Origin: Sphingomonas jeddahensis
Lineage (GTDB): Bacteria; Pseudomonadota; Alphaproteobacteria; Sphingomonadales; Sphingomonadaceae
Direction of reading: 5' to 3'
Assembly: GCF_001981525.1 (NCBI RefSeq)
Contig: NZ_MPSB01000008.1
Span: forward strand, 62,001-126,000
Length of the DNA: 64,000 nt
The translations under genes were made by a program, and so were the position numbers. Shown piece by piece: positions 4,661 to 44,500 of this stretch. The notes under the pieces were generated by a model. The model was not told where the DNA came from, did no database searches, and saw only the letters and a program-made list of their open reading frames with translations. The first letter of the stretch is position 1, and the number at the start of each line of letters is the position of its first letter.

Positions 4661-5662
4661 TCACCCCATCGTCAGCACGATCTTCCCTACGTGATCGCCG
4701 GCCTCCATCCGCCGGTGCGCTTCCGCAGCCTCGGCCAGCGGGAAGGTCTTGTCGATCACGGGCTTCAGCCGCCCGGCCTCCACATGCGGCCACACCGTGC
4801 GCGCCAGTTCGTCGGCCACCATTGCCTTGAAGCTGGTGTCGCGCGCGCGCAGCGTCGATCCGGTCAGCGTCAGGCGGCGCATCATCAGCGCGAAGATCGG
4901 GATCGTCGCGGTCGGCCCGCCCTGCACCGCGATCGAGACGTGGCGGCCGTCCTCCGCCAGGCATTTGAGATTGCGCGCGACATAATCACCGCCGACCATG
5001 TCGAGCACCGCGGCAACGCCCTTGCCGCCGGTGATCTCCTTCACCCGCTCGACGAAATCCTCGGTCTTGTAGTTGATCGCATGGTCGGCGCCGAGCGCCT
5101 TGGCCGCGGCGACCTTCTCGTCCGATCCCGCCGTCACGATGATCGTCACGCCAAAGATGTTGCACAGCGAGATCGCCATCGTGCCGATGCCGCTGGTGCC
5201 GCCATGCACCAGCACGGTATCGCCTTCCATCGCAAAGGCGCGCTCGAACAGGTTCGTCCACACGGTGAACAGCGTTTCGGGGATCGCCGCGGCCTCGACC
5301 ATCGAGAGCAATTCGGGCACCGGCAGGCACTGGCCTGCGGGCGCCGCCACATATTCGGCATAGCCGCCGCCCGCCACCAGCGCGCAGACCGGCTGGCCCA
5401 CCATCAACTGATCGACGCCCTCGCCCAGCGCCACGACCTCACCCGACACCTCAAGGCCATAGATGGTCGGCGCGCCCGGCGGCGGCGGATAGGCACCCTT
5501 GCGCTGCATCACGTCGGGCCGGTTGACGCCGGCGGCGGCAACGCGGATCAGCACCTCGCCGGGCTGGAGCTGCGGCACCGGGCGCTCGACCAGGACCAGC
5601 ACTTCCGGGCCACCCGGCGCTTCGGGATCGATCGCCTGCATCGTTGCCGGAATGTCGCTCAC
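4661..5662 (-). CDS. NAD(P)H quinone oxidoreductase, PIG3/QOR type (zinc-free MDR)
   Basis: A medium-chain dehydrogenase/reductase lacking the zinc ligands, like quinone oxidoreductases of the PIG3 group. The N-terminal GroES-like fold includes GVNRPDVMQRKGAYPPPPG, and the NADPH site is VLVHGGTSGIGTMAI. The C-terminal segment AEAAEAHRRMEAGDHVGKIVL is typical of the family. I prefer GTG at 5662 because AAGGGGG lies just upstream; ATG at 5680 has no ribosome site. Length is about 333 residues. It presumably reduces quinones one electron at a time, which is family knowledge only. Confidence 0.88.
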   Translation of the reverse strand: MSDIPATMQAIDPEAPGGPEVLVLVERPVPQLQPGEVLIRVAAAGVNRPDVMQRKGAYPPPPGAPTIYGLEVSGEVVALGEGVDQLMVGQPVCALVAGGGYAEYVAAPAGQCLPVPELLSMVEAAAIPETLFTVWTNLFERAFAMEGDTVLVHGGTSGIGTMAISLCNIFGVTIIVTAGSDEKVAAAKALGADHAINYKTEDFVERVKEITGGKGVAAVLDMVGGDYVARNLKCLAEDGRHVSIAVQGGPTATIPIFALMMRRLTLTGSTLRARDTSFKAMVADELARTVWPHVEAGRLKPVIDKTFPLAEAAEAHRRMEAGDHVGKIVLTMG

Positions 5663-19745: not shown

Positions 19746-20471
19746 CTACCAGCCGGTACGTGCCGCGCCCTGACGCCGCGTACCGCAGCTGACCGGGCCG
19801 CCGCCCGGTGCGCGCACCACACATGTCGCTGCGCCGCTGATCGTCACCTTGCCTAGCCCGGTGTTCGTCACCCGCGCGGTGTGGCGTGCATTCGCACGAG
19901 TCTCGCCTGGCCCGCCGAGCATCACGGTCAGATCGTTGACCGTCATTGCCGAGGCATCGATCATCCCGCTGCCGTCGGTGGTCAATTGCGAGCGATTGGC
20001 GCGCCCGCCCGCGGTCAGCGTGCCTGCGCCCAGTACCGACGCGCTGAACTGATCGGCCTCGACTCGCTCCACCGCCAGACTTCCCGAGCCAGCAACGGAA
20101 ATCGCCACCTGCTGCGAGGTCAATCGGTTGACGCTGACGCGAGCGCCGGCCGAAATCGCCAGCGCCGTGAGTCGCGGCGTGGACAGGGTGATCACCGGGG
20201 CTGTGGCATTGTCCTTTCGAAACGCCTCGCCCCATCCGCCCGAGCCAAGCCGCACCGTCAACGTCGTACCGTTTACCGCGATCGCCACTCGCTCGATCAA
20301 CTGGCGGTCGCCAGCCACCTTCGCGCGCGGCGACCCGCCAGTGACGATGCGCACCTCGAACGGGCCATCGACTCGCACCTTCTCAAAGCTGCCAACCGAG
20401 AACACGCGATCCGCCGCGACGGCCGGGACGGGTGCAAGCAGCAGGACGAGCGGCGCGAGGCGAACGATCAT
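19746..20471 (-). CDS. Exported GIN-domain (DUF2807) protein
   Basis: 241 residues with a signal peptide (MIVRLAPLVLLLAPVPAVAAD) and a DUF2807/GIN head domain: FSVGSFEKVRVDGPFEVRIVTG, then repeats such as VAGSGSLAVERVEADQFSASVLGAGTLTAGG typical of a right-handed beta helix. GTG at 20486 is an alternative start. It lies 51 bases after the lipoprotein paralogue at 20523-21245 in the same direction, so they are likely co-transcribed. Role unknown; envelope or adhesin-like function is a family-level guess. Confidence 0.78.
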   Translation of the reverse strand: MIVRLAPLVLLLAPVPAVAADRVFSVGSFEKVRVDGPFEVRIVTGGSPRAKVAGDRQLIERVAIAVNGTTLTVRLGSGGWGEAFRKDNATAPVITLSTPRLTALAISAGARVSVNRLTSQQVAISVAGSGSLAVERVEADQFSASVLGAGTLTAGGRANRSQLTTDGSGMIDASAMTVNDLTVMLGGPGETRANARHTARVTNTGLGKVTISGAATCVVRAPGGGPVSCGTRRQGAARTGW

Positions 20472-20522
20472 GCCCGCAAGCGTCACAGCATCCGCCGGGA
20501 CGGCGCAAGAGGCGAGTCGAGA

Positions 20523-21245
20523 TCAGCCGCCGCAGCGCACGTCGCCGCTGCCCATCTTGCTGATCTTGCAGCGTGCCTTGGGGCCGAGATCGACGTCGCC
20601 CGATCCCATCATCGATACGGACGCGTCGCCGTTGACCGCCGCACGCACGCTGCCCGATCCAGCGATGTCGACCTTCGCCTGCGACGCTCGCAGTCCGCCC
20701 GCGTCAACATCGCCCGATCCGGCGATCGACACGCCCAGCGACCCCGCCTCCCCGCTCGCGGCAGCACTGCCCGAGCCGGCGATCGATAGCTTAAGGGCTT
20801 CCACCGCCACGCGGCCGAGCATCAGATTGCCCGAGCCTGCAATGTCACCGTGGAAGCTGACGCCCTCAACACGATCGATCGACATGTTGCCGGAACCCGC
20901 CAGCCCCGCCGAAGCGATCCGCGGCATGGTGACATAGATTTTCGCGGCGCCCGAGTTCAGGTTGAACCCGCGTTCGCGACCGATGCGAAGTCGATCACCG
21001 TCACGTACGATCCGGATGCTTGCCAGCACCTTTTCGTCACCTTCGGCGCGAACCGAGAACCCCGAGCCGACCCGCACGTCCACGTCATCGGGCCCGCGCT
21101 GTTCCACCTTGGCAAAGTCGGCGACCGCATAGCTGCGCGACCCGCCCGAACCGCTTCCCGCCACGCCCGGCGCTTCGTCGTCGCCCGACCAACCGTTGCC
21201 GCACGCCGCAATCGGCAGCAGCAGCGCAAAAGCTAAGGCACGCAT
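20523..21245 (-). CDS. GIN-domain (DUF2807) lipoprotein
   Basis: 240 residues with a lipoprotein signal (MRALAFALLLPIAAC) and a GIN head domain followed by about seven turns built on AGSG/MGSGD: LAGSGNMSIDRVEG, IAGSGNLMLGRV, IAGSGSAAASGE, IAGSGDVDAGG, IAGSGSVRAAV, MMGSGDVDLG and KMGSGDVRCGG. This is a regular beta-helix. The ATG follows AGGAGGAGG, a very strong ribosome site. It is first in a pair with the paralogue downstream, and its promoter carries an operator-like inverted repeat. Confidence 0.82.
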   Translation of the reverse strand: MRALAFALLLPIAACGNGWSGDDEAPGVAGSGSGGSRSYAVADFAKVEQRGPDDVDVRVGSGFSVRAEGDEKVLASIRIVRDGDRLRIGRERGFNLNSGAAKIYVTMPRIASAGLAGSGNMSIDRVEGVSFHGDIAGSGNLMLGRVAVEALKLSIAGSGSAAASGEAGSLGVSIAGSGDVDAGGLRASQAKVDIAGSGSVRAAVNGDASVSMMGSGDVDLGPKARCKISKMGSGDVRCGG

Positions 21246-21259
21246 GGCATCCTCCTCCT

Positions 21260-21298
21260 GTGTATTGCCATACTAATACACTCGGAAGAGACCCGCAA
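21260..21298 (-). promoter_or_regulatory. Promoter and 22-bp operator upstream of the GIN-domain genes
   Basis: On the minus strand TTGCGG (21298-21293), 17 bases, TAGTAT (21275-21270). The -10 lies inside an inverted repeat GTGTATT-N8-AATACAC (21260-21281), which ends just before the AGGAGGAGG ribosome site. The site resembles one over the start of the GntR gene at 44.4 kb. Confidence 0.6.
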
Positions 21299-21323
21299 GC
21301 TTGGTCGCGTCGGCCATAACGAC

Positions 21324-21404
21324 GTCACCCCGGCCTTGAGCCGGGGTCCCGCTTAGTCCCTTCACCGGAAGGAAGCGGGACCCCGGATCAAGTCCGGGGT
21401 GACG
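21324..21404. repeat. Intergenic palindromic repeat, type B
   Basis: Starts GTCACCCCGGCCTTGAGCC and ends CAAGTCCGGGGTGACG, with inner arms GGGTCCCGCTT and AAGCGGGACCCC. Lies just beyond the carD stop. Confidence 0.8.
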
Positions 21405-21431
21405 ATCATGCTAGAGATTGAGGACCAGCGC

Positions 21432-21965: not shown

Positions 21966-22233
21966 AGGAACCGGATCCTCCGGGTTGGATCACGCCATCG
22001 GCACGACCGTGCGGACGATATCGCCCGCTGAGCCTGTTCATGGTGACGTGAAGGGTTAGCGACTCCAGCGGACGCGCGAGAACGATGCGTCCGTCACGGG
22101 CTTATATAGCAGCGTTGCAAGAATATTACCAGCGGCGATGTGTCAGCAGCGCTGGCGCTTTATGGTGGGTGAGCCGCGACGATCGCCGTCGCCAAGCGGG
22201 GGACGCATCGGCCCGAAACGTTTGCGGAACCTT

Positions 22234-22260
22234 GGACCCCGGATCAAGTCCGGGGTGACG
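22234..22260. repeat. Half palindromic repeat, type B
   Basis: GGACCCCGGATCAAGTCCGG, then GGTGACG: identical to the right half of the copies near 8.5 and 21.4 kb, without a left half. It lies 3' of fdxA. Confidence 0.65.
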
Positions 22261-22287
22261 AAGTTCGCGACATCAAACGCCGCCCGC

Positions 22288-44096: not shown

Positions 44097-44453
44097 TCAG
44101 GCCTGCTCGCGCTCCAGCAGCGCCGCGGCATCCAGCCCGAGCAGATCGATATACGCCCGGATTCGCGGCCATTGCTGGCTCACGAAGGCCTCGCGCTCGG
44201 CGACGCACAGCCGCTCCGCGGCGCCCGGCAGAACGAACATGCCCACCCCGCGCCGCACCTCGACATAGCCTTCGTCCTGGAACGACTGATATGCCTTGGC
44301 GACGGTCAGCGGGTTCGCGCCATGTTCGGCCGCCAGCGCGCGAACCGAGGGCAGTTGATCGCCAGCCCGATAATCGCCGCGCAGAATCCCTGCAGCGATC
44401 GTGCCGCGCAATCGGATATAGACCGGGCTGTCTTCGCTGTTCAGCGCTGTCAT
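44097..44453 (-). CDS. GntR family transcriptional regulator, YtrA type
   Basis: 118 residues. N-terminal winged helix (PVYIRLRGTIAAGILRGDYRAGDQLPSVRALAAEHGANPLTVAKAYQSFQDEGYVEVRRGVGMFVL, shown only as family match) with the short C-terminal helical dimerisation domain that defines the YtrA subfamily. YtrA-type repressors usually control ABC or envelope-stress genes; no such gene is adjacent. The start codon lies inside an operator-like site, so autorepression is likely. Confidence 0.87.
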   Translation of the reverse strand: MTALNSEDSPVYIRLRGTIAAGILRGDYRAGDQLPSVRALAAEHGANPLTVAKAYQSFQDEGYVEVRRGVGMFVLPGAAERLCVAEREAFVSQQWPRIRAYIDLLGLDAAALLEREQA

Positions 44454-44468
44454 GCTGCCTTAATACAG
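44447..44468 (-). promoter_or_regulatory. Operator-like site over the start of the GntR gene
   Basis: A 22-bp site, CTGTATTA-N10-ACAG on the minus strand, overlapping the ATG at 44453. TTGGCT, 17 bases, TATTAA forms a promoter whose -10 is inside the site and ends six bases before the ATG, so the mRNA may be nearly leaderless. The TGTATTA and ACA ends match the site upstream of the GIN-domain genes. Confidence 0.5.
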
Positions 44469-44500
44469 CAAAGGGCAGCAAAAGCCAATCCTAACCGCCC

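Follow-up and report, generated by a model that had tools for sequence, protein, structure and literature searches.

A YtrA-type GntR regulator of Sphingomonas jeddahensis very probably recognises, as judged from comparative genomics, the same 22-bp site at two loci: its own gene and, 23 kb from it, the GIN-domain genes. Both loci lie in the stretch of 64,000 nucleotides analysed here (the window), for which an initial annotation had proposed that the regulator controls both its own gene and the distant GIN operon; our comparisons strongly support that proposal. We base this reading on the regulator being the sole GntR protein above the Pfam cut-off in the genome and on the YtrA-like architecture of the site, on conservation of the site at both genes across Sphingomonas, and on the presence of the operator at orthologous gntR promoters together with the co-occurrence of regulator and motif across genera. 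The best explanation for the whole, which we consider highly likely, is that a YtrA repressor controls the GIN promoter, its own promoter and a wider envelope set, and that its ABC transporter has been lost.

In the proposed mechanism, the 118-aa YtrA-subfamily repressor would bind as a dimer to a 22-bp inverted repeat, GTGTAYTR-N6-YARTACAC. Binding would be tight at the promoter of the two-gene GIN operon and weaker at the regulator's own, possibly leaderless, promoter, and the bound protein would block RNA polymerase at the -10 element of both. Its targets would be the GIN lipoproteins and, to go by the recurring operator, TelA, a small Lys-rich protein and small membrane proteins. The repressor would come off the DNA in response to an envelope or membrane-active signal.

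The regulator, the GIN genes and their predicted operators

The following features of the window are relevant here.

19746 to 20486, minus strand: gene of the second GIN-domain protein (P0003, 246 aa; PF10988, E 9.7e-32)
20523 to 21245, minus strand: gene of a GIN-domain (DUF2807/Toastrack) lipoprotein (P0002, 240 aa; PF10988, E 2.2e-38; lipobox-like LLPIAAC)
21260 to 21281, minus strand: strong predicted operator GTGTATTAGTATGGCAATACAC, 14 bp ahead of the GIN lipoprotein start codon
44097 to 44453, minus strand: gntR, YtrA-type GntR regulator (P0001, 118 aa; from its translation and PF00392)
44447 to 44468, minus strand: degenerate 22-bp predicted operator CTGTATTAAGGCAGCATGACAG at the start of gntR, running across the -10 and the start codon
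44460 to 44465, minus strand: putative gntR -10, TATTAA (read from the sequence; TATTA conserved in relatives)
44483 to 44488, minus strand: putative gntR -35, TTGGCT (17-bp spacing to TATTAA; -35-like block conserved in relatives)

A Pfam profile search placed the winged helix-turn-helix (wHTH) of the regulator at residues 18-74 (PF00392, E 2.2e-14), with only 44 residues of the 118 beyond it; the C-terminal domain of YtrA is very short, about 50 aa (PMC4494728). The best solved relative, the GntR protein 3tqn, is likewise small (113 aa). The protein thus has the N-terminal GntR wHTH and very short C-terminal domain that define the YtrA subfamily, and its predicted operator is, as in that subfamily, a long palindrome with GT/AC far from the centre (GTGTA-N12-TACAC, 22 bp). 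The ABC-transporter operon of the subfamily was lacking, with an ABC permease homologue in none of the 37 Sphingomonas genomes. Such an operon is usual for most YtrA members and is not a strict requirement. No other GntR-domain protein scored above the Pfam cut-off in the whole 3.1 Mb genome. The neighbour of gntR in the window, a homoserine dehydrogenase gene, was close by in just 4 of 80 loci of named relatives, which are Sphingomonas species; the location of gntR is therefore incidental, in agreement with the earlier remark that nothing near the gene is an obvious target.

The P0003 gene begins 36 bp downstream of the P0002 gene on the same strand, and the two probably form one operon. They encode the only DUF2807 proteins in the genome, both of which match PF10988 and lie downstream of the conserved predicted operator; the proteins look like exported lipoproteins. 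Separately, we noticed an inverted repeat with CCCCGGATCAAGTCCGGGGTGAC between a CarD-like gene and the GIN operon (window 21320-21405). A second, partial copy lies at window 22230-22262, and the element looks like a dispersed intergenic repeat.

The two 22-bp sites with a common TGTATTA and ACA, on which the link had originally been based, were both recovered on the minus strand. In gene orientation they have in common TGTATTA at positions 2-8, GCA at 14-16 and ACA at 19-21. Exact TGTATTA-N10-ACA occurred in the window at these two sites only, and not once in 6.4 Mb of simulated window-like sequence (first-order Markov). The GIN site, previously called a near-perfect palindrome, is in fact a perfect one, GTGTATT-N8-AATACAC, with both 7-bp arms fully paired. 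It is the only match in the window at up to three mismatches (0.18 expected), and the perfect form occurs a single time in the 3.1 Mb genome.

The gntR copy is degenerate, with mismatches to the palindrome at 4 of the 14 arm positions. When we scored the window with a matrix trained on the GIN promoters of other species, the GIN site received 33.6 bits and the gntR site 8.0 bits, which ranked second in the 64 kb. A score as high as the latter is expected by chance 0.16 times per 64 kb and about 8 times per genome, so the significance of the gntR site lies in its position and conservation. The link originally drawn from the short similarity thus stands through comparison with other genomes, the similarity being weak alone. 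At up to three mismatches the own genome held 13 matches versus 15 for the control; we left these matches out of the evidence, and weaker sites are therefore individually uncertain.

The TATTAA lies 6 nt upstream of the gntR ATG, which suggests a leaderless mRNA. Together with TTGGCT at 17 bp, it makes plausible the claim that the gntR site overlaps a -10 box, an overlap that is still a prediction from sequence.

Conservation of the site and its link to the regulator

We found the palindrome at 29 of 30 Sphingomonas GIN loci, 33-71 bp upstream of the start codon; at the remaining locus the operator stood ahead of an upstream gene. Across the aligned promoters both arms are conserved, the centre drops and the flanks are near background, which delimits a 22-bp block. 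Judged by its columns, this profile is the pattern of a protein-binding site.

At gntR, the site was kept in all 77 distinct upstream sequences from the 80 named relatives, with the consensus [CG]TGTATTA-N6-CATGRCAG and few departures, and relatives have a -35-like element at a spacing of about 17-18 bp. The start codon falls in the right half and the -10 in the left, so conservation within Sphingomonas alone does not prove an operator. The GIN operator could accordingly be real and bound by the GntR protein while the gntR site is simply a -10 box followed by leaderless first codons, with self-control absent in Sphingomonas. The TATTA at -10 spacing, the reading of ATGRCA as Met-Thr/Ala and the low score of the site all fit such a view. 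However, the TG ahead of TATTA is invariant (77 of 77). In other genera of the family the gntR ATG often lies further downstream, and at 38 such loci, whose site does not reach the start codon, the conserved block comprises the same 22 positions and ends exactly at position 22, with a right half of TGANGCAC that is similar to TAATACAC. Furthermore, the gntR promoter has an operator with 0-1 mismatch where the ABC operon is retained. We therefore consider it rather unlikely that self-control is absent, and the conserved block at the 38 loci led us to reject the shared TATTA as a full explanation of the gntR site. Autoregulation in Sphingomonas is what we infer from the conserved, degenerate candidate operator at the start of the gene.

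In other genera (for example at loci L302 and L305) a frequent form of the degenerate gntR site is CTGTATTATGGCACTGATGCAC. This contains the right-half-like blocks TATGGCAC and TGATGCAC 8 bp apart, and there may be two binding registers.

The direction of control is not readable from sequence, so that the regulator might activate the GIN genes instead of repressing them. We regard activation as very unlikely, since the operator is placed for blocking, on the predicted -10 and 33-71 bp ahead of the start codon, and since B. subtilis YtrA (PMC8060467) and its Sulfolobus homologue (PMC6746942) are repressors. Known YtrA behaviour and the position of the site are also the grounds on which we infer physical binding, repression and the inducing signal.

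The regulator and the motif are also linked outside Sphingomonas. Sister families have the orthologous gntR as the first large gene of an operon that also encodes an ABC ATPase and an ABC permease (gntR-ABC), and the promoters of these operons carry the operator with 0-1 mismatch. Three Sphingomonadaceae genera that keep the ABC genes (loci L327, L330 and L335) have operators with 0-1 mismatch at gntR as well. In one sister-family genome (G037) the operator occurs at gntR-ABC and also ahead of a GIN gene cluster.

Two further features of the sister-family operons were observed. Between the operator and gntR there is a short Arg-rich ORF of about 45-50 codons (among others at L106, 4021-4158; L109, reverse strand, 5353-5493; L110, 4258-4401), whose product may serve as a leader peptide or as a small partner of another protein. 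The long leaders of some gntR-ABC operons contain short blocks such as ACGACAGCGAGGA repeated many times (L107, 3869-4400; L108, 4011-4680; L122, 3244-3700).

Next, co-occurrence was scored in 69 Sphingomonadaceae genomes, one per genus, with the motif defined at up to one mismatch. Of the 61 genomes with the regulator 40 had the motif, against none of the 8 without it (Fisher p = 0.0005, shared ancestry ignored); in the other 21 genera with the regulator no motif was found within one mismatch. In one Sphingomonas draft genome (G019, 86% complete) motif matches were present and the regulator was undetected. Since the pairing is by association and 21 genera with the regulator lack a near-perfect motif, the GTGTATT-N8-AATACAC sites might be bound by another transcription factor that is co-distributed with the GntR protein. 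This is highly improbable given that the motif occurs at the orthologous gntR operon promoter in several families, fits the known architecture of YtrA operators and is missing in all genera without the regulator.

Equal abundance of the site in random sequence, which the initial annotation had named as a result that would count against its proposal, did not hold. Matches at one mismatch were far above a reversed-pattern control in the genome comparison, and of 190 genomes drawn from across the class only two had the strict motif, namely this genome and another of the same family. There is next to no chance that the likeness of the two sites is a coincidence between AT-rich promoters: their common bases are few and both hold TATTA, but the site is conserved at both loci in dozens of species, as well as at the orthologues of other families, which already contradicts a coincidence.

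Genes downstream of the operator

The regulon proposed originally consisted of gntR and the GIN operon. Both are kept, and the regulon appears wider, because operators recur at other genes. Among Sphingomonas operators at up to one mismatch, whose downstream genes we clustered, GIN lipoproteins accounted for 24 matches (one from a sister family), followed by a multi-pass membrane protein beginning MYSESD (9), TelA-family proteins (PF05816; 5), a small Lys-rich protein (4), a small lipoprotein divergent from an MFS transporter (3) and S9 peptidases (2); DUF5694 proteins were found too. GIN, MYSESD, TelA and S9-peptidase genes and a small MLNI membrane protein recur at operators in other genera. 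In the own genome, sites with one to two mismatches to the palindrome lie at the following places.

C7:95845: gene of the small Lys-rich protein
C11:55565: gene of the TelA protein
C5:181872: gene of the MLNI protein
C3:213784: sppA (named from its translation; no support from other species here)
C8:33071: a pcm-like and then a tolC-like gene (named from translation; no support from other species here)

The MYSESD protein, which has no Pfam match, was not found by search in the own genome and is therefore probably outside the regulon of this strain. No PspA or PspC was noticed among the genes adjoining operators. Based on the protein families of the targets, the motif-preceded genes (GIN lipoproteins, TelA and small membrane proteins) look like a dispersed envelope regulon.

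Other operators were seen in further genera. In a genome from another genus of the family (G204, locus L164, 1501-1522) a strict operator lies just ahead of a gene with a YidC-like start, YidC being a membrane insertase. In two genera (L260 and L275) the operator directly precedes the genes of mutually homologous proteins, each about 500 aa long, which may belong to the envelope.

Known YtrA systems and evolution of the arrangement

The small GntR repressor YtrA of B. subtilis controls ytrGABCDEF and ywoBCD through a long inverted repeat, AGTGTA-13 bp-TACACT (PMC8060467). The Sphingomonas regulator resembles it in having its own gene and a distant operon as predicted targets. It differs in the spacer of the GTGTA/TACAC halves, which at 12 bp is one base shorter, and in that the ABC transporter operon is absent and the targets are GIN lipoproteins, TelA and others. 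The Xanthomonas citri YtrA site, as quoted in PMC6746942 from Zhou et al. 2017, is GGTG-N16-CACC, and in the form quoted there it shares exactly the GTG-N16-CAC spacing found in the Sphingomonas operator. In Sulfolobus acidocaldarius, the targets repressed by YtrA are its own locus and a single remote gene for a membrane protein, with sites that span the transcription start site (PMC6746942); this system differs in being archaeal and in having a 14-bp core motif. PmtR of S. aureus, which accompanies the pmt ABC exporter, is YtrA-type and the sole subfamily member in its genome (PMC5080381), whereas the Sphingomonas regulator has no ABC partner. The sister-family gntR and ABC ATPase scored against the PmtR and PmtA models, far under the equivalog cut-offs.

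Toastrack proteins (DUF2807/DUF4097/DUF2154) have been described as partners of membrane-stress systems, and Toastrack+ABC+GNTR-HTH operons were noted among envelope-stress neighbourhoods (PMC11237479). As in those neighbourhoods, Toastrack/GIN proteins are here tied to a GntR-type regulator; unlike there, the regulator gene lies apart from the GIN genes and the connection is a shared operator. The same work argues for an intracellular Toastrack, whereas the GIN proteins here have the appearance of exported lipoproteins. Our literature search on GIN genes or the 22-bp motif in Sphingomonas found nothing relevant.

An ABC permease homologue was present in 19 sister-family genomes, all of which have the regulator; as it is missing from all 37 Sphingomonas genomes, the regulator is an orphan there. 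The ancestral state would be an autoregulated gntR-ABC ATPase-ABC permease operon, still present in sister families. In Sphingomonas the transporter would have been lost, leaving the regulator alone over dispersed envelope genes.

We see about an even chance that the orphan YtrA repressor has been re-used as the master of a dispersed envelope-stress regulon, that is, a Psp/Lia-like response run by a stand-alone GntR protein, whose members would include the GIN/Toastrack lipoproteins, TelA, small and multi-pass membrane proteins and an S9 peptidase. GIN-domain (DUF2807) proteins are widespread and poorly understood, and the conserved operator connects them with a named regulator as well as with further genes of the envelope. 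Finding what releases the repressor would point to the conditions in which GIN proteins are needed. There is also a clear case here of a local transporter repressor that would have retained a scattered regulon after the loss of its transporter, and living relatives still show the stages.
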